Made by a program: the position numbers and the translations under genes. Under the pieces are notes generated by a model, which ran no database searches, was not told where the DNA came from, and was given only the letters and a program-made list of their open reading frames with translations. 24,000 bases of DNA, taken from positions 1-24,000 of the IMG/VR virus record IMGVR_UViG_3300032288_003984; one strand, written 5' to 3'. The stretch is from a virus. This document shows, piece after piece, positions 5,926 through 21,545 of this stretch (positions within the stretch are counted from its first letter, which is position 1; each line of letters opens with the position of its first letter).

Positions 5926-6157
5926 TGAAGTAGAACTAAATCTTCAGATGTGGTCAACTGTGGTTTTATCTGCTGAAGAAATTCAGGATATCTATCCAGA
6001 GTTTGCAGATATGGTTGACTTTGAAGATACTGATGAATTGGAGCAGGCACTTCAAGACCATATGGATATGAATTACATAGACCATATTCAATATGCAGAC
6101 GGTGCTTTAGACGACTGTACAGTTCACTTTGTTTATGAGGATGATGGCAGTGAGTGA
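5909..6157 (+). CDS. Very acidic small protein (82 aa, GTG start)
   Basis: A GTG at 5909 follows GGGAAAGGAAAA, an excellent ribosome site. The 82-residue product is strikingly acidic, with many Asp and Glu (FADMVDFEDTDELEQALQDHMD) and a C-terminus DDCTVHFVYEDDGSE. Such DNA-mimic-like composition is seen in phage anti-restriction and anti-CRISPR proteins, but also in many ordinary phage proteins, so composition alone does not assign a role. Confidence 0.65.
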   Translation: MAKVISEVELNLQMWSTVVLSAEEIQDIYPEFADMVDFEDTDELEQALQDHMDMNYIDHIQYADGALDDCTVHFVYEDDGSE

Positions 6158-6533
6158 AGACACATGCTGTGAATTCTGTGGCAACGAACTGTGTAGTTGC
6201 TTGGACCCAAACATGAATCCAGACTCACCTTACTATAAGAAGGTTTTGTTGACGATGGAGGAATGGGAACATCACTTCAGGCCTATTAATAATACTATAG
6301 ATAAGAATGCATCACTTGGTGGTGCAATGTTTGAGACCTATGGTGAAGAGTATGACTACGTGGCTGCTATTGGTCACAGAGAACCAAACCGTATATGGAC
6401 GTATATGGACGATGATAACGGAGATACCGTAATCATTAATGCTTGGTCCTTTGTCAATAGAATCGGGTATTTAATAACAGAAAAACCATATGATGATTCT
6501 ATAGATATAGAAGTACAACTAGATAAAGAATAG
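6150..6533 (+). CDS. Unknown protein with N-terminal Cys cluster (127 aa)
   Basis: I chose the GTG at 6150 because GAGG at 6137-6140 is spaced nine bases from it; the ATGs at 6135, 6141 and 6144 lie too close to or within that site. The N-terminus SEDTCCEFCGNELCSC holds five cysteines in a short span, a probable zinc knuckle. The rest is an acidic alpha/beta domain with a beta-rich middle (GDTVIINAWSFVNRIGYLI). No family recognised. It overlaps the previous gene by 8 bases. Confidence 0.65.
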   Translation: MSEDTCCEFCGNELCSCLDPNMNPDSPYYKKVLLTMEEWEHHFRPINNTIDKNASLGGAMFETYGEEYDYVAAIGHREPNRIWTYMDDDNGDTVIINAWSFVNRIGYLITEKPYDDSIDIEVQLDKE

Positions 6534-6541
6534 GAGATACA

Positions 6542-6775
6542 ATGTTAACTATGGATGAGTATAAAATTATAGATAAGATTTTACCTAATTACCTCGAAGT
6601 TGGAGATCTAATTAAAGTAAAAGACGAAGTCTTTGAAGTTATAAATACAAGGACTACGGATACTGGTTGGGATCTGGTTGTAGTAGATAACTACCAAGAG
6701 ACTAAGGTAATATCGGTGCCAGATAACAAATTGGTAAACTTGGTCATGGAAGAGTCTTTTGACTTTCCACAATAA
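6542..6775 (+). CDS. Small beta-rich unknown protein (77 aa)
   Basis: A 77-residue protein with TAGGAGATACA before its ATG. After a helical start (MDEYKIIDKILPNYL) it is beta-rich: VGDLIKVKDEVFEVINT and WDLVVVDNYQETKVISV alternate like an SH3-like or small barrel domain, as in many phage proteins that bind RNA or protein. Assignment to a family is not possible by eye. It lies 8 bases after the preceding stop. Confidence 0.7.
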   Translation: MLTMDEYKIIDKILPNYLEVGDLIKVKDEVFEVINTRTTDTGWDLVVVDNYQETKVISVPDNKLVNLVMEESFDFPQ

Positions 6776-6808
6776 TCATGATAAACTAAAAGTTTCAGAA
6801 AGGCAATA

Positions 6809-7072
6809 ATGTTCATATCATCAAATAAAGTAGCAAGTAAGATTATTGACCTGTTTTCCAATAATCAAATAAGCCAGAACCAATGGAAGTTTGACATACC
6901 AGATGACATTACAGATGAACACTTGGCTATTGTCGCAACTGCCAAGAACTTTGCAGACGGCATACAATACTCGTTGGATAGAAAGGGTATTGACATACCA
7001 GAGGAAATTGTAGTATCATCAAGAGAGTATAAACAATACATCAACAGCGAGGGTGGAATAACAAAATGCTAG
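6809..7072 (+). CDS. Unknown small protein (87 aa)
   Basis: An 87-residue alpha/beta protein beginning MFISSNKVASKIIDLF with an AGAAAGG ribosome site. Residues 29-60 (DIPDDITDEHLAIVATAKNFADG) are acidic. No catalytic or binding motif is visible. The stop overlaps the next start by 7 bases, so it is coupled to the gene at 7066. Confidence 0.65.
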   Translation: MFISSNKVASKIIDLFSNNQISQNQWKFDIPDDITDEHLAIVATAKNFADGIQYSLDRKGIDIPEEIVVSSREYKQYINSEGGITKC

Positions 7073-7353
7073 ACAAGCCAAACAACGAACTCAAAGCAGA
7101 ACTTATCATAAAGTTTTGGAACAAGTATCATAAAGACCCATTGTTTCAATCTTTCTTTGAATACAATAACTTAGGTGTTCCACTCGCACAATTATCCTAT
7201 GACAGCATTGTTGACATCACTAACGACCATGCTCAACGCATACTTGACGACACCTACTATGAGTTGTGTCAAGTGTACCTATGCAATCCTAATAAGGTCT
7301 ATCTTAGCCTTGAGGAAATGGCTCATGTTGAAATACCAGATGACGAAGAATAG
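7066..7353 (+). CDS. Unknown acidic protein before tRNA-Asp (95 aa)
   Basis: A 95-residue, mostly helical protein (ELKAELIIKFWNKYHKDPLFQSFF) with an acidic C-terminus (EEMAHVEIPDDEE). It closes the small-gene run; its stop is only 6 bases before the first base of tRNA-Asp, so the tRNA is very likely processed out of the same transcript. No family recognised. Confidence 0.7.
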   Translation: MLDKPNNELKAELIIKFWNKYHKDPLFQSFFEYNNLGVPLAQLSYDSIVDITNDHAQRILDDTYYELCQVYLCNPNKVYLSLEEMAHVEIPDDEE

Positions 7354-7359
7354 TAGCCT

Positions 7360-7436
7360 GGTCCTGTAGTTCAGTTGGTTAGAACGCCACCCTGTCACGG
7401 TGGAGGTCGCCAGTTCAAGTCTGGTCAGGATCGCCA
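7360..7436 (+). tRNA. tRNA-Asp (GTC anticodon), CCA encoded
   Basis: A complete cloverleaf: acceptor GGTCCTG pairs with CAGGATC, D-stem GTTC/GAAC, anticodon stem CCACC/GGTGG with loop CTGTCAC giving anticodon GTC, and T-arm with GTTCAAG. The CCA is encoded at 7434-7436. It lies 6 bases after an upstream gene in the same direction. Phage tRNAs usually offset codon-usage differences from the host or replace tRNAs cut by host defence. Confidence 0.95.
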
Positions 7437-7446
7437 CCTGGGGTAG

Positions 7447-7463
7447 AAAAATATATTTTTTTT
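7447..7463. repeat. A-tract/T-tract boundary repeat, copy 6
   Basis: AAAAATATATTTTTTTT lies 10 bases after tRNA-Asp and could terminate the long transcript. It is followed by two ATCCCTTTT words (7469-7485) and a TATATATATA stretch, an unusually easily melted tract. Confidence 0.5.
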
Positions 7464-7500
7464 CCATATCCCTTTTATCCCTTTTATATATATATTCTCA

Positions 7501-7574
7501 TATTACGAAGGACTATTATGTTTGCCTGTATTTTTGATATTACGAAGATCTTGTATATTTGCCCATGATTGACA
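7501..7574 (+). repeat. Tandem pair of the bipartite element (copies 2 and 3)
   Basis: Two adjacent 37-base units, each beginning TATTACGAAG (7501 and 7538) with TTTGCC starting at offset 21. The second unit ends in the TTGACA that is the -35 box of the hydrolase promoter. Between these fixed words the units differ, which suggests a protein-binding site rather than a recent duplication. Confidence 0.55.
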
Positions 7575-7598
7575 ACTTCGTTGTATATGGGCTATAAT
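7569..7598 (+). promoter_or_regulatory. Consensus sigma70 promoter of the hydrolase gene
   Basis: TTGACA at 7569-7574 and TATAAT at 7593-7598 match both consensus hexamers exactly, spaced 18 bases. Predicted start is near 7605, leaving AGGTGGAT (7611-7618) as ribosome site for the ATG at 7628. The two bipartite elements immediately upstream may regulate it. Confidence 0.8.
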
Positions 7599-7627
7599 AG
7601 ATATCCAGATAGGTGGATATTTATATT

Positions 7628-8176
7628 ATGACTTGTATAGTAGGAATAGTAGATTCTTTGAATACCCCCCGCCGTGTGTTTATGGCGGCTGATAGCGGGG
7701 CATCTGATGAAAGTATTATGACCCCAATAATGGATCCAAAGATACAAAGAAATGGAAAGTATTTAATTGGATATGCAGGAGAAACAGGATTAGGACAATT
7801 ATTGCACTCTATTGATCTTCCAGATCCAAATGTGCAAAATAAAGATTTATTACGATTTATGAGAACTAAATTTGCATTATGTTTTAAGAATGCTATAAAT
7901 TTATATTCTCCTTCAACTTCCCCCGCCGATGATAAAGATGGCGGGCTAACGGCACTCATTGCTGTAAAGGGAAGACTCTTTGAGTTTAACTCTGAGGACT
8001 TCCAGTTCAATGAGTACTTGGAAGGTGCTATAGGGAGCGGCTCCCACCTAGCCTTCGGCTCCCTATACACAACTCGGGGGTATAAAGATATAAATAAAAG
8101 ACTCAGAATAGCAGTTAATGCAGCAATAGAATATAGTCCAAGTTGTTCTGGTCCAATAGTTTTTGACCATATTTAA
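7628..8176 (+). CDS. HslV/proteasome-like N-terminal-threonine hydrolase
   Basis: This 182-residue protein has the layout of the proteasome beta/HslV (Ntn-hydrolase) family. The start MTCIVGIVD would expose Thr2 as nucleophile after Met removal. Asp22 (in AADSG) and Lys38 (in MDPKIQRNGKYLIGYAG) correspond to the catalytic Asp17 and Lys33 of proteasomes, and GSGS at 136-139 with the following AFG matches the conserved C-terminal motif. Length fits HslV (about 175). The ATG at 7628 is chosen over an in-frame GTG at 7613, which would bury Thr2 and overlap the ribosome site AGGTGGAT. No HslU-like ATPase is visible here. Whether it cleaves protein or another amide is unknown. It is a single-gene unit behind a consensus promoter. 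Confidence 0.75.
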   Translation: MTCIVGIVDSLNTPRRVFMAADSGASDESIMTPIMDPKIQRNGKYLIGYAGETGLGQLLHSIDLPDPNVQNKDLLRFMRTKFALCFKNAINLYSPSTSPADDKDGGLTALIAVKGRLFEFNSEDFQFNEYLEGAIGSGSHLAFGSLYTTRGYKDINKRLRIAVNAAIEYSPSCSGPIVFDHI

Positions 8177-9071: not shown

Positions 9072-9920
9072 CTAGTTCCAATCTGGATCTGGGTTATTTG
9101 GCCATATAATTACTGGAGTAGTATAGGCCTTATAGGCCTTATCTAGATCTTGATTATAGTCTTCTGGTCTTGGAATATCTAATGACTTAAATAGGAATGA
9201 TTTATGCATATCATAGATAGAGTATTTATCTCCTAGACTCTCTACCACCGATTTCATTCCCTTGGTCCAGACTTCTGCAGCAAGTCTATTGTCTGCATAG
9301 ATTAGGTATGGGTCTGTAGTTGTTTCTACCCTTTCTGGATATCCAAGTGCTTTAATGTATTTAAGATGGGTCCACCAAAAGTTACTACTAAAGTGACCCC
9401 TTTCTTCCATGACTTCTAAATCTAAAAATCTAGAGTATTTGATATCCTCATCTTTTCTAAGCCTATATTCTTTAGCAGTATGCTTAGGAGTTAAGTAATA
9501 AGTTCCAACCATTGAATGATCTTTTAGTTTTCTAATGGCTTTTCTCCAGTTGCCAACTAAAACTGAGTATAGTTCCTTACGCCAAGAATGCTCAAAATCT
9601 ACATCATTAAAGGATGCTTTTGCGTGATTATAAAATACATATCCATCATGATCTTGAGCAAATTCAACCATCTTGTCTTGTGTAACCTGCTCAAACCCAG
9701 AGTCAGCCTCAACACAAATTTCATACTTTAAACCAGCATTTAGCCTTAGATATTCTTTAGCAGAAATTCTATTAGCAGGAGATCCAACCAATCCAACATA
9801 AACCTTTTCAATATTTCCATATAACAAAGAATCTTCTAGATATGCAATATGATCATTTAAAGGTGTTTTCCAATTTCCATCTACCCATAGGTGATAGAAG
9901 TTGTATATCTTAGGAGTCAT
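9072..9920 (-). CDS. Glycosyltransferase-like protein
   Basis: A 282-residue protein. Two motifs recall a group of glycosyltransferase-like proteins in phages and large viruses: YVFYNHAKAS at 94-103, like the YLHTKG motif, followed by HSWRKELY, and HFSSNFWWTHLKYIKAL at 176-192, like the HFSGNFWW motif. I see no clear DxD for sugar-nucleotide binding, so the activity is inferred from motif resemblance only. It overlaps the stop/start of the oxygenase gene upstream by one base, so the two are co-transcribed. It could modify glycans on virion or host surface, in line with the larger cassette at 14.7-21.5 kb. Confidence 0.5.
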   Translation of the reverse strand: MTPKIYNFYHLWVDGNWKTPLNDHIAYLEDSLLYGNIEKVYVGLVGSPANRISAKEYLRLNAGLKYEICVEADSGFEQVTQDKMVEFAQDHDGYVFYNHAKASFNDVDFEHSWRKELYSVLVGNWRKAIRKLKDHSMVGTYYLTPKHTAKEYRLRKDEDIKYSRFLDLEVMEERGHFSSNFWWTHLKYIKALGYPERVETTTDPYLIYADNRLAAEVWTKGMKSVVESLGDKYSIYDMHKSFLFKSLDIPRPEDYNQDLDKAYKAYTTPVIIWPNNPDPDWN

Positions 9921-10480
9921 TATTTCTTTCTCCTATAAAATGATGCAATATTCTTTCTGTTACCCTCGAGTATTTCAGTTACTTCATGAGGCATATCTTT
10001 GTTGCCATTAAAAAAGATTAAAGTGCCAGGCTCAGGTGACTCTTTAAAGTCTTGCTTTGGAAAGTGTATGTGTCCACCTTCATAGTCATCATTTAGGTAT
10101 AGTAAGGCTGCAAACTCAAATTCACTAGCATATAGGGTATCGTTATCGTCTAATGGGTCATTAGAGGCTTCCATATCCACATGCATACCCAAAGAAGATC
10201 CCTTAGTCATATTTACATAATTAGATGATTTTATTTCTAAATCAAGGTTATATGTATTTGACACTTCATCCCTTATTCTGTTTAATAGATTATGAATATC
10301 TACAGAAGAGATGGGAAATTCACTGTCATGTTTCATATCGAACAACACTGTTTCATTCGCCAAAGATACAAATTTTACTAGAGGATCTGGTCCAGGGAAT
10401 GACACCTTATCAAAGTACGAAACTAGTTTTCGACATTCCTCCGCCGAAATAAAATTCTTAAAAATGTGTATTTTATTCAT
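9920..10480 (-). CDS. 2-oxoglutarate/Fe(II)-dependent oxygenase
   Basis: The 186-residue protein shows the prolyl-4-hydroxylase-type jelly-roll motifs: HxD at H100-V-D102 (GMHVDME), the distal His165 (MPHEV), and Arg175 (EGNRKNIASF) to bind 2-oxoglutarate, with GGHIHFP and PGTLIFFNG in the expected strands. Such enzymes hydroxylate protein, nucleic acid or small-molecule substrates; the substrate here is unknown. I chose the ATG at 10480, preceded by AGAAGGAT, over an ATG at 10516 that would overlap the upstream gene more deeply. It overlaps that gene's stop by 8 bases. Similar oxygenases are frequent in marine and freshwater phages. Confidence 0.85.
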   Translation of the reverse strand: MNKIHIFKNFISAEECRKLVSYFDKVSFPGPDPLVKFVSLANETVLFDMKHDSEFPISSVDIHNLLNRIRDEVSNTYNLDLEIKSSNYVNMTKGSSLGMHVDMEASNDPLDDNDTLYASEFEFAALLYLNDDYEGGHIHFPKQDFKESPEPGTLIFFNGNKDMPHEVTEILEGNRKNIASFYRRKK

Positions 10481-11201
10481 ATATCCTTCTATGCCATTCT
10501 GTGTTTTTATATACACCTTGCTCGAGCGGAGTTCTGTATCTCAAACTGATGTCGTGATTCTTTGTACCCAGTATAGCACTGTCCTCTTTTATGTATTCAG
10601 CCCTCCAGTCTTCTCTCTTAAATGGAAAGATTTGAATGTATGGGGTTCCTGCAGGAATTGTACCTGTCCAGCCTTTAATTAGAAAGAATGGGATGTTGCC
10701 AGATAAATGTGTTGTATCGCTATCTATAATTCCACTAGTATTTAAAAATGGTAGGTCAAACCTATTTACTGGTGTCAAAAATAAAGAACTGTAACCTTTG
10801 GGTAGAACTATTCCCCAGTCTATAAACCATCCAAAATGCTCTTCGTGATAGCCTATAGGTGTGTGAAACTGATCCATAGGTTTTTTTTCAGTACAAAAAT
10901 TCTTGTACTTTTCATCATCTATTTTGCATGAAATTTTATTTTCATCATTTATATAAAAATGTATGTCACAAGGTGTTTTAAGAACGTATCCACTTATCAT
11001 GCTATCCATAAAAGGATGGCAGGCTTTAAAAGTGGGATATTTGTACCCTTCTGGATCTATATAACTTATACCTTTATCATCATTCATAAATCTATCCGCT
11101 TTTGAATACCATTTAGGTATTTCCCTACTAGCAGCATTAGGTTTATTGTCAGAATCCTCAGTCAGCCAAAATCTATTTGTTATAAACTTTATAATGTTCA
11201 T
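10473..11201 (-). CDS. Conserved phage protein of unknown function (242 aa)
   Basis: A 242-residue protein with features of a family I have seen in phages, possibly DUF6065: CHPFMDSMISGYVLKTP near 61-77, then WFIDWGIVLPKGYSSLFLTPVNR near 129-151, and GTPYIQIFPFKREDW near 186-200. Its beta-rich, Pro/Gly-rich character suggests a jelly-roll fold. No function is established. It lies between a small gene and the 2-oxoglutarate oxygenase, overlapping both, so it may work with that oxygenase, for example as a partner or a second enzyme on the same substrate; this is inference only. Confidence 0.6.
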   Translation of the reverse strand: MNIIKFITNRFWLTEDSDNKPNAASREIPKWYSKADRFMNDDKGISYIDPEGYKYPTFKACHPFMDSMISGYVLKTPCDIHFYINDENKISCKIDDEKYKNFCTEKKPMDQFHTPIGYHEEHFGWFIDWGIVLPKGYSSLFLTPVNRFDLPFLNTSGIIDSDTTHLSGNIPFFLIKGWTGTIPAGTPYIQIFPFKREDWRAEYIKEDSAILGTKNHDISLRYRTPLEQGVYKNTEWHRRIYE

Positions 11202-14693: not shown

Positions 14694-14722
14694 ATTATAG
14701 CATCCTATCTGGAATTTGTCTA
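14694..14722 (-). promoter_or_regulatory. Strong extended -10 promoter of hsp20
   Basis: On the minus strand TAGACA (14717-14722), 17 bases, then TATAAT (14694-14699) preceded by TGC. The -10 box contains the stop codon of the upstream glycosyltransferase gene. Predicted start is near 14687. Confidence 0.75.
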
Positions 14723-15441
14723 TTTTCTACTGGAATAAGTCTTCCTTTATGCTGCACAATAATGTCTTTTCTAACCACTATTGGTCCTATCAATTTATTT
14801 ATAATATCTTGCATTGAGAAATCATCATTAATTTTCATAAAGGAATTGTGATGAAATGGAACTGTAAAGTATGAGGGTGCATTAAATAGCATTGCTGCTA
14901 TGGTGGCTCCTCCATATTGTAATTTTGGTTGACTATCTATATCTTTACCTAATAAGTTATATCCTGGAACGGTTGCACCAACAACCTGACTATCTACTTC
15001 TAATAGTCCTTCCAAAGCCTCTAGGGTTAGATCCATATCGCTATCAATAAATAAAATAGAATCATACGTTACCTTTGGAACCATGTCATGCTTAGTATCT
15101 TCTTCACTCCAAGTTTCTCTTTGAGCGTATTCTCTAATTAAGTTTCTTCCTGTTTCTATTCTTATCCATCTATTTTGAGAACCTACCTTAGTTTGATGAT
15201 CATTTATATAGTATGTCCAATATTTTCCATTTACCTCTCCTAGTGCTCTTAAAACATCTAAAAATGGATTTAAACCGTCTTTATCAACTTCTATTGAAAC
15301 AAAAAATTCACAATTTGGAAATGATTCTTTAATCTTAATTCTATTTTTAAGCCAATCTAAATGTTCATTACTTTCACACTTCCATCTAACCATAGTTGTT
15401 GCAATAAGAATCTTAGAATTATAATTTATTTGCTTAAACAT
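14695..15441 (-). CDS. Glycosyltransferase-like protein, paralogue A
   Basis: A 248-residue GT-A-like protein. It shares a series of motifs with the protein at 20051-20761: an N-terminal ILIATTM strand, EVDKDGLNPF (51-60), GKYWTYYIND with a following NRWIRIETGRNLI, and an acidic ILFIDSDMD (D133-S-D135), then VGATVPGYNLLG. The DxD-like site suggests sugar-nucleotide binding. The ATG at 15441 is preferred because a -10 box (TATCAT) ends seven bases before it, giving a leaderless start; an in-frame ATG further upstream would lie in the divergent gene. It is the left end of the glycan cassette; its target is unknown. Confidence 0.65.
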   Translation of the reverse strand: MFKQINYNSKILIATTMVRWKCESNEHLDWLKNRIKIKESFPNCEFFVSIEVDKDGLNPFLDVLRALGEVNGKYWTYYINDHQTKVGSQNRWIRIETGRNLIREYAQRETWSEEDTKHDMVPKVTYDSILFIDSDMDLTLEALEGLLEVDSQVVGATVPGYNLLGKDIDSQPKLQYGGATIAAMLFNAPSYFTVPFHHNSFMKINDDFSMQDIINKLIGPIVVRKDIIVQHKGRLIPVENRQIPDRML

Positions 15442-15458
15442 AAGAACTATGATACCAT
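15430..15458 (+). promoter_or_regulatory. Rightward leaderless promoter of a divergent pair
   Basis: TTGCTT at 15430-15435, 17 bases, then TACCAT at 15453-15458 preceded by TGA. The ATG at 15467 lies where transcription is expected to begin. Its -10 overlaps that of the leftward promoter at 15449-15477. Confidence 0.55.
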
Positions 15459-15477
15459 GGATACCTATGAAAAACAA
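15449..15477 (-). promoter_or_regulatory. Leftward leaderless promoter of a divergent pair
   Basis: On the minus strand TTGTTT (15472-15477), 17 bases, then TATCAT (15449-15454) preceded by TGG. Seven bases separate the box from the ATG at 15441. Both promoters cannot be occupied at once, so the two genes are probably expressed alternately. Confidence 0.55.
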
Positions 15478-16255
15478 GAGATTCATCATACAGGCTGGCA
15501 GTAGAAGTAACGATGATATAGATAATTATTTAAAGTTTTATAATGAAAAAGATTATGACTGTGGAGATAGGTGGAATAACTTTTTAGGGGTTAAAAAACA
15601 TATGATACCAATTAAAGGTGAGCCCTTAATTCATAGAACTCAAAGATTGTTATTAGAAAATGGTGCAACCGATGTTATTGTAAAATGTAATAAAGAAGAT
15701 ATAGAAAAATATACTATTATTGGTTGTAATGGTATTGAAAACCCAACTACCAATCTAAATAAATCTTATCCAGATCATGAGTTTTTTAATTGTCAACCAT
15801 TACTTAATAAAGAAGGTGTTACGGTTTTATTATTTGGAGATATATACTATAGCGAAAATTTAATTAAGCATTTAATAGAAAATGATTCAGAAGATTGGCA
15901 CTATTATTCTAGATGGAGAAACTCAGATATAACTGGAAAGATTTATGGAGAAATGTTTGCTTGGTTTTTTAATAATAATCATTTTAATAAAATGTTTTCT
16001 GCTGCTGAATTATCAATATCTACTGTAAAAAATTTAATTTCATTAAAAGATAGTAATCATCCAGTTGCTAATCTTGGATGGAAAATGGAAGATACATCAA
16101 GGATGACCTATAGAATTCTTGCTGGATTAGATCCAGAAGATCCTCATTTAATAGAAGGACATCATTGGATTGAGTGGAATGACGAATCGGAAGATTTTGA
16201 TTATCCACAAGACTGGATTAACTGGTCTTCAAGACTTCCTCATCTAGCGTATTAA
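15467..16255 (+). CDS. Nucleotidyltransferase-fold (GT-A-like) protein
   Basis: A 262-residue protein with features of sugar-phosphate nucleotidyltransferases: an N-terminal strand, PIKGEPLIHRTQRLLLENGATDVIV (48-72, the subunit and product-binding pattern seen in RmlA/GlmU/MobA-like enzymes), and VLLFGDIYYSE (120-130) with the metal-binding acidic residue. The usual N-terminal GxGxR-PK loop is replaced by QAGSRSNDD, so catalytic ability is doubtful. I chose ATG 15467 by the leaderless promoter. It is one of only two rightward genes in the cassette; its 3' end overlaps the convergent LicC-like gene by 38 bases. Confidence 0.55.
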   Translation: MKNKRFIIQAGSRSNDDIDNYLKFYNEKDYDCGDRWNNFLGVKKHMIPIKGEPLIHRTQRLLLENGATDVIVKCNKEDIEKYTIIGCNGIENPTTNLNKSYPDHEFFNCQPLLNKEGVTVLLFGDIYYSENLIKHLIENDSEDWHYYSRWRNSDITGKIYGEMFAWFFNNNHFNKMFSAAELSISTVKNLISLKDSNHPVANLGWKMEDTSRMTYRILAGLDPEDPHLIEGHHWIEWNDESEDFDYPQDWINWSSRLPHLAY

Positions 16256-16952
16256 TTAAACTTTCAACATTGTCATAGTCTTCTTTAACATTTAAATCCC
16301 AATATCTAAGACCTGGTATATATAGCATTGAAAGTGGAATACTTTCTTTTGATACCGCCAGTGCCACCGCTTCCTCATATAACAAAGTATAGTTATTAAA
16401 TTGATTATAATATCTCATAGATCCTAGCATTTCTTTTGTAAAGTGAGATGGACCAGTAAAATTAGGTGGCTGCTGTAGCCCATTTCGATACTCCATACCT
16501 CTATTAAAGTTAACTAATCTACCATTTTCAAACTGTGGAACAGAAACACTATGTGTATTTTTATATCCAGAGTGAACCATTGTATTACCTGATGATTTAA
16601 GTAATTCTTTTAATGCCCTCTCTTCAAATACAAGGTCTCCCTCTGTTTGAATAAAGCAGTCTGATATAAATGGATACGCTAAACTCATTGATTGTGTTGT
16701 TTGATATTTATCGTACTCTGAATTATTAATTAATATTACATTTTCATATTTTTTAAGATGATCTTCTAACATTTCAAACTTATATCCACCTATTACAATT
16801 ATCTCTTTTACCCCATTTTTTATCATTATGTCTATATTTCTTTCAAGCAATGTTCTACCATTAAATGAATATAGACACTTAGGCTTATCAGACTCAAGCC
16901 TTTTACCCATGCCAGCAGCAAGAATTACTGCTTGACTACATATGTGTACCAT
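16218..16952 (-). CDS. LicC-like nucleotidyltransferase
   Basis: A 244-residue nucleotidyltransferase. The N-terminal loop LAAGMGKRL (11-19) with KPK (23-25) is the NTP-binding signature; GVKEIIVIGGYKFEML (47-62) and NNSEYDKYQTTQSMSLA (76-92) followed by IQTEGDLVFE (101-110) follow the order seen in LicC-type CTP:phosphocholine cytidylyltransferases and related enzymes. The metal site would be Asp106. Adjacent to a choline-kinase-like gene, so a CDP-choline (or CDP-ethanolamine) pathway is the leading hypothesis, but another sugar or alcohol phosphate is possible. The start is predicted to be leaderless (TATAAT ends six bases before the ATG). Confidence 0.7.
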   Translation of the reverse strand: MVHICSQAVILAAGMGKRLESDKPKCLYSFNGRTLLERNIDIMIKNGVKEIIVIGGYKFEMLEDHLKKYENVILINNSEYDKYQTTQSMSLAYPFISDCFIQTEGDLVFEERALKELLKSSGNTMVHSGYKNTHSVSVPQFENGRLVNFNRGMEYRNGLQQPPNFTGPSHFTKEMLGSMRYYNQFNNYTLLYEEAVALAVSKESIPLSMLYIPGLRYWDLNVKEDYDNVESLINTLDEEVLKTS

Positions 16953-16960
16953 GCTATAAT
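16932..16960 (+). promoter_or_regulatory. Strong rightward promoter of the kinase gene
   Basis: TTGACT at 16932-16937, 17 bases, then TATAAT at 16955-16960 preceded by TGC. It lies within the start of the LicC-like gene; predicted start is near 16967, before the GTG at 16996. Confidence 0.7.
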
Positions 16961-16987
16961 TATAGCCTACAGGGCTATTAAAGTAAA
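16959..16987 (-). promoter_or_regulatory. Leftward leaderless promoter of the LicC-like gene
   Basis: On the minus strand TTTACT (16982-16987), 17 bases, then TATAAT (16959-16964); six bases later comes the ATG at 16952. Both -10 boxes lie in the perfect palindrome GCTATAATTATAGC at 16953-16966. Confidence 0.65.
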
Positions 16988-16995
16988 GAGGAAAA

Positions 16996-17952
16996 GTGTT
17001 AGAAGAACTATACAGTAGAAAAAGTATACCTCCATTCGGAGAGCCTTACCTAGGACATAAAAATTTATTTAGAAATAATTTAGATAGAACTCCTGCCCTA
17101 AAAAAATGGAAAAAATATGAACCACTAGTTAATGGAACGACAAACAAAGTTTACAAAATTACTCTTGAAAATGAATCTTTTAGAGTATTAAGAATTTGGA
17201 ATAAAGATTCTAATAAAATAGGAATACTTAGAGATTGTGAAATTTTTAATTCAACAATTGCACATAGAATTGGTATTGCACCAGAGGTTTTATATTCTAG
17301 TATAGATAAAAATCTAATGGTTAGCGAATTTTTAGATGGAGATGTTTTAGAAAATAATGATTTTTTAAATTTATCCATACTTTCTGATACTATAAAAGCA
17401 ATTAAAAAATTGCATAGTGGACCTAGATTTGTAAACGAATTTGATATATTCAACCTAATGGATAAATTTTTACAAATTTGTAAAGAAAATAATTATAAGT
17501 TGCCTGAAGGATTTTTAGAACATAAGAAAAATATGTTTTATATAAATAAAATTAGAAAAGTATTGAAGCAACAAAAAGGTCCTACTGTTGCATGTCATAA
17601 TGATCTTATGGCAAACAATATTATTGTCACTGATAAAGGAACTAAATTTATAGATTTTGAATATTCTGGAAATAATGATCCTTGTTATGAATTAGGACAC
17701 ATGTGGGTAGAAGCAGATTTAGATTTATCTAAACTAAACTACATCATTATGGAATATTTTGGGTATTGGGATCAAAAGAATGTTAATAAGGCTATACTTT
17801 ATAGCATAATTTCTAGTTATACTTGGTATCTTTGGGGAGTAATTCAATCCAACATATCTACAAATAACTATAATTATACAAAAGATTATGAAAATAGATA
17901 TAAAAAAGCAAATTTAAAACTTAACGGTAAAGAATTAAATAACTTCTTTTAA
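16996..17952 (+). CDS. Choline/ethanolamine-kinase-like (LicA-like) protein
   Basis: A 318-residue protein of the choline kinase / aminoglycoside phosphotransferase superfamily. LVNGTTNKVYKI (44-55) forms the P-loop-like segment; the catalytic H201-N-D203-L-M-A-N-N208 and the metal-binding IDFEYSG with D220 and E222 are typical of choline and ethanolamine kinases (IDFEY). Expected reaction: ATP-dependent phosphorylation of choline or a related amino alcohol, the first step of LicA-type pathways. The start is GTG at 16996 with AGAGGA close by. It is divergent from the LicC-like gene from overlapping promoters, and overlaps the convergent epimerase gene by 18 bases. Confidence 0.75.
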   Translation: MLEELYSRKSIPPFGEPYLGHKNLFRNNLDRTPALKKWKKYEPLVNGTTNKVYKITLENESFRVLRIWNKDSNKIGILRDCEIFNSTIAHRIGIAPEVLYSSIDKNLMVSEFLDGDVLENNDFLNLSILSDTIKAIKKLHSGPRFVNEFDIFNLMDKFLQICKENNYKLPEGFLEHKKNMFYINKIRKVLKQQKGPTVACHNDLMANNIIVTDKGTKFIDFEYSGNNDPCYELGHMWVEADLDLSKLNYIIMEYFGYWDQKNVNKAILYSIISSYTWYLWGVIQSNISTNNYNYTKDYENRYKKANLKLNGKELNNFF

Positions 17953-18801
17953 TGCCATTCTTACGCCTTCTTCAAGGCTAATTTCTGGTGTATAAAATGA
18001 AAGCATTTTAGTTGGATCGCATACTCTGTAATAAACTCCAGTAGGTTGTGCTGTTAAATGTTCTATATCTGGGTTGTATTTATTAAATTTAGTAACCATA
18101 GATGCTAGTTCGTTAAAACTTGTTGGTCTACCCCAACCTAAATTAACTGGTCCCTCAATGTCTTGATTGATTGCTTCATCAACTGCATTAACAACATCTC
18201 TCATGTGAATAAAATCTCTTACCTGTTCACCATCTCCCCAAATTTGAAAAGGATCTAGTTTTCTTTTAGATCTATCTATAAATGATGGAAAGGGGTAAGA
18301 AAGATCTTGATCTGTTCCATATCCTGAAAATGGTCTAAAAATATTCACTTTAATGCCAGCAGTCTGTGCAAATTGTGCAAGATATTCCCCTGTTAACTTT
18401 GACCATCCATATGTTAAGTCTGGGTTACGAACATCATCAAGATTTATGTCAGATTCTTTTAATTTATAGCCAGAGTCTCTATATTGTTTTTCAATTGGAT
18501 ATGCTGCAGAAGATGAGAAATAAACTATTCTACCTGGCTTAGTTCTAAGTGCCCATCCAAATAATTCTGAGTCAATTGATAGGTCTACTGCTACAGAAAG
18601 TGGTGAGCCTTCAATTGTTGCACGACCACCAACAACTGCTGCAAGATGAATTACTAAATCATAATACTCTTGATTAACTTTAAAAAAATCTCTAGCATCA
18701 TTTCCTTCTACAATATCAATACCAGTTATATCGTGATCTTTATATTTTTCACAAAAATACTTTCCAACAAATCCTCTATGTCCAGTAATTAAAATTTTCA
18801 T
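17935..18801 (-). CDS. NAD(P)-dependent sugar epimerase/dehydratase (SDR)
   Basis: A 288-residue extended SDR. The Rossmann motif T6-G7-H-R-G10-F-V-G13, DLVIHLAAVVGG (48-59), a Ser in FSSSAAYP (95-102) and the catalytic pair Tyr131-x3-Lys135 (YGWSK) are all in place, followed by RPFSGYG and VRDFIHMRDVV. This fits enzymes acting on nucleotide sugars, such as UDP-glucose 4-epimerase or GDP-fucose synthase; GGRATIEGSP resembles the latter group. It acts in the cytosol upstream of glycosyltransferases. The following gene in the operon starts one base before its end, consistent with one leftward operon from 21545 down. Confidence 0.85.
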   Translation of the reverse strand: MKILITGHRGFVGKYFCEKYKDHDITGIDIVEGNDARDFFKVNQEYYDLVIHLAAVVGGRATIEGSPLSVAVDLSIDSELFGWALRTKPGRIVYFSSSAAYPIEKQYRDSGYKLKESDINLDDVRNPDLTYGWSKLTGEYLAQFAQTAGIKVNIFRPFSGYGTDQDLSYPFPSFIDRSKRKLDPFQIWGDGEQVRDFIHMRDVVNAVDEAINQDIEGPVNLGWGRPTSFNELASMVTKFNKYNPDIEHLTAQPTGVYYRVCDPTKMLSFYTPEISLEEGVRMALKEVI

Positions 18802-19382
18802 TATAAACCTTTCTTTCTTTTATATGTTATATGATCCTGCTCTATTAATCTTTGAAACTCTTCATTGATAGCCACATGCCCATTAGGTTCAAAGTGAATA
18901 AAGTCTGTATTAAAAATCCTACCCGCTTTTTTATTAGCATCTGCTTGTTCATATAAAAAAGTATCTCCATAGTACCATCTAAAGTCTTCATCTAATCTTA
19001 ATCCAGAATCTAGCCTTAGCATCCACGATGATCCACCACCATTGCCTGTATTTTCCGTGTCCAATACATCTAGGTCTCTATCTATCATTTCTTTATACAT
19101 TTTTTCTACAAAATCGTCTGGAAAATCTACATCATCGTTAACAATATAGACATACTTAGCACCATTTTCTTCGGCATATTTAATACCATTATTCCACCAT
19201 CTATTGATATTTATACCTGCAAAATCTTCTATATGATTGACATTATCAAACTTTGTGTACCCTGGTTTATTATTTACAATTACAATTCTTTTATGATATT
19301 TATGTAACTTATTAATTACATTTGGAAGATATTGCTCTCTTGTTCCAATTGGTATAACTACCCATACATCATCTAATGACAT
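18801..19382 (-). CDS. Glycosyltransferase-like protein (GT2-type)
   Basis: A 193-residue protein with a single GT-A domain: WVVIPIGTRE at the N-terminus (strand plus loop), IVIVNNKPG, then YVYIVNDDVDFPDD with N82-D83-D84 as the DxD-type metal site, and YYGDTFLYEQADANKKAGR (138-155), which is the acceptor-side WxGDxD...R pattern of GT2-like rhamnosyl and related transferases. It is short but complete. No membrane segment, so it works in the cytosol. Start and stop overlap neighbours by one base. Confidence 0.75.
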   Translation of the reverse strand: MSLDDVWVVIPIGTREQYLPNVINKLHKYHKRIVIVNNKPGYTKFDNVNHIEDFAGININRWWNNGIKYAEENGAKYVYIVNDDVDFPDDFVEKMYKEMIDRDLDVLDTENTGNGGGSSWMLRLDSGLRLDEDFRWYYGDTFLYEQADANKKAGRIFNTDFIHFEPNGHVAINEEFQRLIEQDHITYKRKKGL

Positions 19383-20050
19383 TATAGTTCCAATCTATTC
19401 AGTAAATTTCTATACCCAGCCAAAGTTCCTACATCAAAGTATCTTCCATCAACTTCAAATGCAAAATGTTTCTTAAAATTATCTACTACTAAGTATTCAA
19501 GATCTAATCCTGGATGAGCCTTGAATCTATCTAATTGCATAATGATTTCATGATTTAGTGCCAAAGCACCCCACATATGTGGATAATCACAATCTGATAC
19601 CTTATCTTTCATATCTGTAATAGAATTTTTTACTAATTCAACTTGTCCACCCCTGCCTTTTAATTCATCATCTATTGGCCAGCACGCTAATGAAATTAAA
19701 TTATCTTTTATAGATTCAGATAATTTTATATATGGATTTTCTCCTTCAAAATATGTATCTGCCATACCTACTAAATAATTATCTGACTCATATACATTAG
19801 CCATTTTTATTACTGCATCATTCATTGTAGATGGTTCAATAATAACTACTTCAGTTTTAGGTAAATTAAATGATTTTACCAACTCATACCAAACACTGGT
19901 TGTACTTACAACAACTTTATCAACATAAAAACTCATTTGTTTAACTTGTCTTGTCAGTAGTGGAGTGTTATCTTTATCACACGGTAATGCAAACTTAGGT
20001 AGTCCACCCATTCTACTTGCTTTGCCAGATGCTGGTATTAATCCTATCAT
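19382..20050 (-). CDS. Sugar-phosphate nucleotidyltransferase
   Basis: A 222-residue enzyme with the NTP-binding loop PASGKASRMGGLPKF (6-20, including R13 and PK at 18-19) and a YFDVGTLAGY motif near the C-terminus, both typical of RmlA/GlmU/GalU-type enzymes that join a sugar-1-phosphate to NTP. Between them LVGMADTYFEG (about 93-103) carries the metal-binding Asp. The product would be an activated sugar for the transferases next door; which sugar cannot be told. It starts one base after the end of the paralogue-B gene and overlaps the GT2-type gene by one base. Confidence 0.8.
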   Translation of the reverse strand: MIGLIPASGKASRMGGLPKFALPCDKDNTPLLTRQVKQMSFYVDKVVVSTTSVWYELVKSFNLPKTEVVIIEPSTMNDAVIKMANVYESDNYLVGMADTYFEGENPYIKLSESIKDNLISLACWPIDDELKGRGGQVELVKNSITDMKDKVSDCDYPHMWGALALNHEIIMQLDRFKAHPGLDLEYLVVDNFKKHFAFEVDGRYFDVGTLAGYRNLLNRLEL

Positions 20051-20761
20051 TTATCTATGAACCGTCATATCATGACCTCGTGTTTCTATAGCACCAATTG
20101 ATTCAGGAAAATGTTTTGCAATTGAATCCATTCTTACATGTGTTGGTATTCCTAAATATTTTAATGCATCATGATGATATGCTGGATCATCAGATAGATT
20201 CATATCTAAGTCCCAACGCCATCTAATTTTTGTAAATACATGTCTTGAAATAAATATCGCTGCAGCAGAAGCCATTGTATTTTCTACAGGATATGGATAC
20301 TCTGGAATTCTTGGACCCCTTAAATTATATGTTGGAATAAATGGTGCACATAATGGATAGTTCATTTCAAGCATCTTTGGAATAACATCATCTGGTGCCA
20401 TACAATCTGCTGCCATAAATAATAAGTGTGTAACTGCTGGATTAGCCTGAGCATAATCTACAACGAGATTTTGTCCAAATGTAATATGTCTTAATCTATT
20501 TAATGTTGTAACACTTGTTCTACCATCATCCAATGAATATGTAAAATATTCACCACCTATTGCTTCAAGTCTTTCTATGAATGGTTTAAATGGCTCTATA
20601 CCTCTTGCATCTACTTCTAATGCTGCAAAGTATTTTACATCAGAATAATTTGCAAATCTTTGATAGTGTTCTTTTATTGCTTCTGCATTTTTCATCCAAG
20701 ATCCCCAAGTATCTGGATTGTCCATTGAGAATGCTGCTGTGGTTGTTCCAATTACTATCAT
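20051..20761 (-). CDS. Glycosyltransferase-like protein, paralogue B
   Basis: A 236-residue homologue of the protein at 14695-15441. Shared motifs are an N-terminal VIGTTTAAF strand, ALEVDARGIEPFKPF (48-62), GGEYFTYSLDDGRTSVTTLNR (69-89), FGQNLVVDYA and LLFMAADCM (113-121), then APFIPTYNLRGP. Here the acidic motif is AAD rather than DSD. The ribosome site AAGGATAAT precedes its ATG. A pair of paralogous transferases at the two ends of one cassette suggests that they add successive or alternative residues. Confidence 0.65.
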   Translation of the reverse strand: MIVIGTTTAAFSMDNPDTWGSWMKNAEAIKEHYQRFANYSDVKYFAALEVDARGIEPFKPFIERLEAIGGEYFTYSLDDGRTSVTTLNRLRHITFGQNLVVDYAQANPAVTHLLFMAADCMAPDDVIPKMLEMNYPLCAPFIPTYNLRGPRIPEYPYPVENTMASAAAIFISRHVFTKIRWRWDLDMNLSDDPAYHHDALKYLGIPTHVRMDSIAKHFPESIGAIETRGHDMTVHR

Positions 20762-20762
20762 A

Positions 20763-21545
20763 TTATCCTTCCCATAATGTTAGGTTTTGTACTTCACTAT
20801 TATACAGCAACCATTGGCTATGCCATTGATTAGTTTTATGTAAATGTGAATCTGGCTTTACAGGGCCACCAAAATGAATAATACAAGCATGATTTAATGT
20901 CTGTATAGTTTGTGCGTGCTCTGCAAATCTATTATCAACATTATATTTAAGTGGCAATAATGTTTTATTATCTTTAAATATTTCATTAATTATGTCTTGA
21001 TCAATATACTGATAATTATTACCTATTAAAGAATCAAACTTTTCTTGTATATTATTCTCTCTCCAATATTTAAGTGATGTTTTATATACTGCAGAACTTA
21101 TATAAGCATAATCTGTATCTAAATCATAGTAAACATCAAGAACTCCAGCAATTGGCATAGGGTATTTTGCCTTTAAGTAGTCATCTATATTTTTTATAAT
21201 TAATGTGTCACAATCTATGTAGTTTATCCAATCGATATCTTCTGGAACAGCATCTACTATGCATGATTTTAAAAATATAGTTTCATCGTACCAATGACTT
21301 TTATATAGCATATCTTGTTTTTTCCATTGGTAATACTTTTTACTATTAATAAAGGTTATATTAATACCGTTTCTAATTTGCGTAAAATAATTTTTTATCT
21401 TATCTTTTTCTATATTATTAAATTCATCATCTTTTGTTAGAATATAAATATTTATATCTACTGTTGAATTTTTAATTAAAGAATAACAAGAAGTTTTAAA
21501 TAAATTGAAATATCTTTTGTCTACAACATAGACAACATTTGACAC
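20763..21545 (-). CDS. GT8-family-like glycosyltransferase
   Basis: A 260-residue protein with the GT8 pattern: an N-terminal VVYVVDKRYFNLFKTSC, a DxD in INYIDCDTLI (D111, D113), IDQDIINEIF (181-190) and a C-terminal IIHFGGPVKPD (222-232), matching the HxGxxKPW motif that closes the active site in GT8 enzymes such as LgtC. It would transfer galactose or glucose from UDP-sugar. The start is a GTG, seven bases after the nuclease gene; the ribosome site is weak. First gene of the leftward cassette operon; no strong promoter is seen before it. Confidence 0.8.
   Translation of the reverse strand: MSNVVYVVDKRYFNLFKTSCYSLIKNSTVDINIYILTKDDEFNNIEKDKIKNYFTQIRNGINITFINSKKYYQWKKQDMLYKSHWYDETIFLKSCIVDAVPEDIDWINYIDCDTLIIKNIDDYLKAKYPMPIAGVLDVYYDLDTDYAYISSAVYKTSLKYWRENNIQEKFDSLIGNNYQYIDQDIINEIFKDNKTLLPLKYNVDNRFAEHAQTIQTLNHACIIHFGGPVKPDSHLHKTNQWHSQWLLYNSEVQNLTLWEG

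Follow-up and report, generated by a model that had tools for sequence, protein, structure and literature searches.

The LicA-LicC-LicD system of Streptococcus and Haemophilus follows a two-step logic, in which a kinase is succeeded by a cytidylyltransferase. A kinase of the APH fold also stands beside a nucleotidyltransferase (NTase) in the AmgK-MurU route of cell-wall sugar salvage. The best solved relative of the NTase considered here is PntC of Treponema denticola (6pd1/6pd2), which carries an aminotransferase fusion. PntC, LicC, and inositol-phosphate cytidylyltransferase act on phospho- or phosphono-alcohols rather than on the sugar-1-phosphates usual in glycan synthesis. In the open literature that we searched, we found no earlier description of phage phosphocholine or of a choline kinase paired with a cytidylyltransferase in a phage.

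The phage gene pair described below shares with the Lic system its two-step logic and the choline-contact residues of its kinase. It differs from that system in being phage-borne and divergently transcribed, in the absence of LicD from the four fragmentary records that carry it, and in the placement of both proteins: the kinase falls outside the LicA clade, while the NTase has substrate residues of the PntC type and falls outside the LicC clade.

A conserved gene pair and its bidirectional promoter

The source is a 24-kb virus record, possibly a fragment; the whole stretch that was analyzed is called the window. The pair and its surroundings comprise the following features.

14695-15489, minus strand: conserved neighbor without a Pfam match, paralog-like to the 20051-20761 protein; candidate transferase
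15467-16255, plus strand: third gene of the conserved triplet (phrog_33187), degenerate NTase-like; convergent with the NTase gene, with a 38-bp overlap of the ends
16218-16952, minus strand: NTase (244 aa), cytidylyltransferase-like, NTP_transf_3 of the PntC/LicC type; GxGxR 14-18, K25, E104-G-D106, R151, Y192-E193, D219-L-N221
16932-16960, plus strand: predicted kinase promoter, TTGACT, 17 nt, TG-extended TATAAT (11/12); conserved in all four phage contigs
16959-16987, minus strand: predicted NTase promoter, TTTACT, 17 nt, TATAAT (10/12); palindrome in common with the plus-strand promoter
16985-16992, plus strand: AAAGAGGA, resembling a ribosome-binding site, upstream of the kinase GTG; kept in all but one of the four contigs
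16996-17952, plus strand: kinase (318 aa, GTG start) of the choline/ethanolamine kinase family; T49, CHND 200-203, N208, D220, E222, Y223, E239, W277, W280
17935-18801, minus strand: NAD-dependent epimerase/dehydratase (phrog_540), 93 to 96% conserved in relatives; 18-bp overlap with the kinase end
18801-21545, minus strand: remaining glycan cassette, with GT2-like, NTP_transf_3, unassigned 236-aa, and GT8 proteins

Pfam matches around the pair (epimerase, GT2-like, a second NTP_transf_3, and GT8) agree with the phage glycan cassette that had been proposed from the letters of this DNA. The GC content is 28.8% across the triplet (window positions 15001 to 18000) and 32 to 36% elsewhere in the window. 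The host is probably an actinobacterium, since two window proteins are ~49% identical to proteins of Streptomyces phages. Relatives of the third triplet gene occur in Streptomyces phages as well, Yara and Dryad included (L129:4965-5624); some are annotated as nucleotidyl transferases, and the one in Yara adjoins a glycosyltransferase and a methyltransferase. In the window protein, the usual GxGxR loop is replaced, and its profile matched none of the solved structures. Elsewhere in the window (9920-10516), Pfam detects a 2OG-Fe(II) oxygenase, of which L001:3208-4529 has two adjacent copies, 56 to 60% identical to it.

The kinase and NTase genes form a conserved, linked unit in phages. Four viral contigs (the window, L001, L002, and L132) have one triplet order, with a phrog_33187-type gene on the plus strand, the NTase gene on the minus strand, and the kinase gene on the plus strand; this count comes from degenerate-pattern scans, not a census, and the kinase pattern did not pick up L132. 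Compared with the window, L001 and L002 encode kinases that are 68 to 69% identical and NTases that are 62 to 90% identical. In L132, identity falls to 38% for the kinase and 46% for the NTase, while the adjoining genes are 55 to 94% identical; the pair in this contig therefore appears either to have changed faster than its surroundings or to have been exchanged as a block, with the arrangement nonetheless kept. The viral DNA pattern for the kinase matched only two relatives and one further viral contig, L013. There (L013:4039-6226), a LicA-like kinase without an NTase lies beside a transporter that resembles EutH by eye, with an integrase-like gene near; this locus probably represents bacterial sequence next to an integrated element.

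The two divergent promoters have a palindromic -10 element, TATAATTATA, at 16955-16964 in common. This palindrome and the plus-strand TTGA are invariant in all four contigs; some promoter bases also code for the NTase N terminus, and conservation there is not purely regulatory. When the 24-kb window was shuffled 100 times, a divergent promoter pair of this strength appeared three times; the conservation strengthens the case beyond that figure. The minus-strand spacing would put the predicted transcription start near the ATG at 16952, and the NTase message is possibly leaderless.

The kinase and its relatives

The motifs named in the original prediction, HNDLxxxN at residues 201 to 208 and IDFEY at 219 to 223, are present exactly there, and the DNA pattern combining them has a single match in the window; 100 shuffles gave no match. 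Assignment to the choline/ethanolamine kinase family was likewise upheld: the protein matches Choline_kinase (PF01633) with 90 bits (cut-off, 29) versus 61 bits for APH, so that the best match is not an unrelated kinase. The Brenner motif CHNDhX3N is present (C200 to N208), and the other positions typical of the family are kept except for T in place of ILV at 216 and E232 in place of D, the latter variant being shared by 80 of 81 bacterial kin. Among solved structures, 3dxq ranks first and LicA second, and eukaryotic choline kinases come after them. A GntI annotation (NF041256) was rejected, as the match reaches 142 bits against an equivalog cut-off of 357 and other family members score 112 to 198; it is a family-level match only.

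In LicA, choline is contacted by T29, D176, Y197, E213, W251, and W254 (PMC4364537). The phage kinase is 22% identical to LicA; these positions align to T49, D203, Y223, E239, W277, and W280, and the fourth aromatic residue of the amine pocket (LicA Y268) is present as either Y294 or Y298, the register being uncertain. The kept pocket supports an amine-bearing alcohol as the probable substrate, without telling choline from ethanolamine. The L132 kinase has an altered pocket (T49M, Y223F, and E239D), and for this reason the substrate may vary between phages.

These features bear on a scheme that we regard as decidedly improbable, in which the kinase would phosphorylate an amino sugar or the anomeric position of a sugar and the NTase would make an NDP-sugar for the cassette, on the plan of AmgK-MurU. 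An APH-fold kinase adjoining an NTase within a glycan cassette is consistent with that plan. However, the sequence families differ from those of AmgK-MurU, Choline_kinase stands 30 bits above APH, there is no sugar kinase among the PDB matches, and the paired Trp amine pocket is retained.

A genome scan returned 80 bacterial relatives at 30 to 35% identity, mostly from Actinomycetota. Within the fetched 6-kb flanks, an FAD-dependent oxidase resembling dimethylglycine dehydrogenase lies near 75 of the 80 and an amino-acid-type permease near 32, while a relative of the phage NTase lies near none. In the kinase tree, the phage proteins nest with the Actinomycetota kinases (99/95) and are split from LicA and 3dxq (100/99); here, as in the other alignments and trees, the PDB rows (LicA, LicC, PntC, and others) were copied from alignments as printed, and some cover less than the whole protein. 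Given this nesting near oxidase-linked proteins and apart from LicA, the kinase was probably taken from a catabolic-looking lineage of the host phylum, and it is not a LicA. These nearest cellular kin (L015-L094) resemble the phage kinase in their pocket residues and in E232; they differ from it in their catabolic-looking context and in lacking both a partner NTase and the phage-type N-terminal extension. The oxidase-associated group includes Chloroflexota as well as actinobacterial members, and CNND replaces CHND in 68 of 81 sequences. The only phage-record match for the kinase, MT839297 (MT839297.1, L005), was set aside: labeled Bacteriophage sp., it resembles a fragment of a high-GC bacterial chromosome, with permease, kinase, and FAD oxidase genes adjacent as in actinobacterial genomes.

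It is conceivable that the phage kinase still acts on whatever its bacterial relatives phosphorylate, which might be an N-methylated compound, and that the NTase serves a separate glycan step. The tree placement and the genomic company of those relatives, oxidases near nearly all and an NTase relative near none, are in line with such a division. We nevertheless give this idea little credence: the triplet and its bidirectional promoter are conserved in four phages, and no dimethylglycine-dehydrogenase-like oxidase was noticed in the phage records.

The nucleotidyltransferase

The divergent neighbor was correctly recognized as an NTase. It matches NTP_transf_3 with 47 bits and has the nucleotidyltransferase loop GxGxR...PK (G14-R18, P24-K25) together with the GT-A metal aspartate, D106. 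With a six-sequence profile, the PDB matches are led by PntC (122 bits), LicC (99 bits), and inositol-phosphate cytidylyltransferase (75 bits), all ahead of sugar NTases; the profile took in PntC-operon sequences and hence leans toward PntC, and a single-sequence search returned the same order. Among PDB matches, then, a sugar-specific NTase is not the best, which speaks further against synthesis of an NDP-sugar. The NCBIfam matches, all far under their cut-offs, are on the contrary led by sugar-NTase models (Arch_glmU, GlmU, and MurU), and the Asp-Asn metal pair of the phage NTase is reminiscent of GlmU; both points lend that scheme some support. The AlphaFold models are poor (pLDDT of 53 for the NTase and 44 for the third triplet protein).

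In PntC, Glu104 and Glu196 are reported to lie near the amine, their counterparts in LicC being Asp105 and Asp192; selectivity has been ascribed to pocket size (PMC6697681). The phage NTase has E104 and Y192-E193, corresponding to E104 and Y-E196 of PntC and not to D105 and W-D192 of LicC, and these residues are kept in L132. R15, K25, K153, E104, and E196 of T. denticola PntC correspond to R18, K25, R151 (a conservative change), E104, and E193. The phage NTase differs from PntC in lacking the aminotransferase fusion and in its metal site. As its partner is a kinase, its substrate should be a phosphate ester. No PEP mutase, the enzyme that would supply a phosphonate to a PntC, was noticed in the window. 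In the NTase tree, the phage proteins join T. denticola PntC (82/82, on long branches), and the LicC group (96/98) forms without them. The earlier label of LicC-like thus stands insofar as LicC is the second solved relative after PntC, and gives way where the PntC-type residues and the position outside the LicC clade are concerned.

These observations also weigh on the literal Lic pathway, that is, a choline kinase and a CTP:phosphocholine cytidylyltransferase forming CDP-choline for phosphocholine decoration, which we consider unlikely. Retention of the LicA choline contacts in the kinase and the rank of LicC among the NTase relatives agree with it, whereas the separation of the kinase from LicA, the absence of the phage NTases from the LicC group, the exchange of LicC-type residues for ones tied to the smaller PntC pocket, and the lack of LicD in the window and the three related records do not. 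The LicA-plus-LicC pair of the original prediction is accordingly not what we find. Of its proposed product, CDP-choline, the part that survives is the retention of the choline contacts; choline becomes one candidate only, and the NTase fits a smaller amino alcohol better.

In all four phages, D219-L-N221 replaces the usual E-x-D at the second metal site of the NTase, a departure from every relative compared. This substitution could mean that the protein is degenerate or regulatory and performs no nucleotidyl transfer. Such a loss of function seems barely plausible, since GxGxR, K25, D106, and R151 are retained down to 46% identity.

Related NTases occur in other contexts. In a sample of 397 genomes belonging to the phylum of a Mycobacterium genome (L105), the NTase has its best match in the company of genes for a CDP-alcohol phosphatidyltransferase and a 2-aminoethylphosphonate-transaminase-like protein. 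In viral contigs L136-L139 (around 5990-7810 in each), which have phage surface-type cassettes, a related NTase is part of an ~600-aa protein. The rest of this protein is an aminotransferase-family PLP domain in L136, L137, and L138; by best NCBIfam match, below the cut-off, the domain in L136 and L138 is CobD-like (threonine-phosphate decarboxylase). LicD is over the cut-off in L136 (L136:9664-10353) and at the cut-off in L138 (L138:7764-8564). The fusions look like another route to make and use an activated amino alcohol, with the amino-alcohol phosphate presumably formed by decarboxylation and not, as in the phage pair, by a kinase. Cobetia phage Carin-5 has an NTase annotated as a CTP:phosphoglutamine cytidylyltransferase (L006:5992-6714), near genes that are polysaccharide-deacetylase-like or annotated as glycosyltransferase and glycerophosphodiesterase.

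A predicted route to an activated amino alcohol

The comparisons show the families to which both proteins belong, intact catalytic and amine-pocket residues in the kinase, linkage of the genes in four phages, and a bidirectional promoter common to them. From these we infer what the pair does, with which substrate and nucleotide, what acceptor is modified, and to what end. With ATP as phosphate donor, the kinase would phosphorylate a small amino alcohol at its hydroxyl; the NTase would join the resulting amino-alcohol phosphate to a nucleotide, probably CTP, to give a CDP-amino-alcohol. A transferase, whose gene would lie in the cassette, in another part of the phage, or in the host, would then pass the phospho-amino-alcohol to a glycan, a virion protein, or the host surface. 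Candidates for the transferase are the third triplet gene product, the 14695-15489 or the 20051-20761 protein, or a host enzyme. The pocket residues of the NTase favor a primary amine, such as ethanolamine, and the substrate of the pair is thus more likely ethanolamine-like than choline. We consider it probable, if far from certain, that the pair is a phage-encoded module that activates an amino alcohol, with ethanolamine favored over choline, for attachment to one of these acceptors.

Several points count against this activation module. In the four records, no final transferase was recognized: LicD (PF04991), CDP-OH_P_transf, and Glyphos_transf were found neither in the window, as the original prediction had said of LicD, nor in the three related records to which the search was extended, all of them possibly fragments (the L136 record, by comparison, is LicD positive). 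The D-x-N metal motif, the sugar-led NCBIfam matches under cut-off, and the long branches joining the NTase to PntC also detract from it, as do the pocket changes in L132 and the location of the bacterial kinase kin near oxidases and not near cytidylyltransferases. A fuller proposal is correspondingly more tentative, possible rather than probable: under one bidirectional promoter, a kinase of an actinobacterial lineage with no known role in surface precursors and a PntC-like NTase would form a two-enzyme phage pathway to a CDP-primary-amino-alcohol of the ethanolamine type, the substrate would have diversified among related phages, and the product would serve to modify virion or host glycans.

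If this proposal is correct, such phages provide for themselves an activated head group, zwitterionic or cationic. They would have a testable way to alter their own coat or the host surface, for example, to block other phages. For the widespread actinobacterial kinases found near dimethylglycine-dehydrogenase-like oxidases, the pair would also give biochemistry its first access to the substrate.
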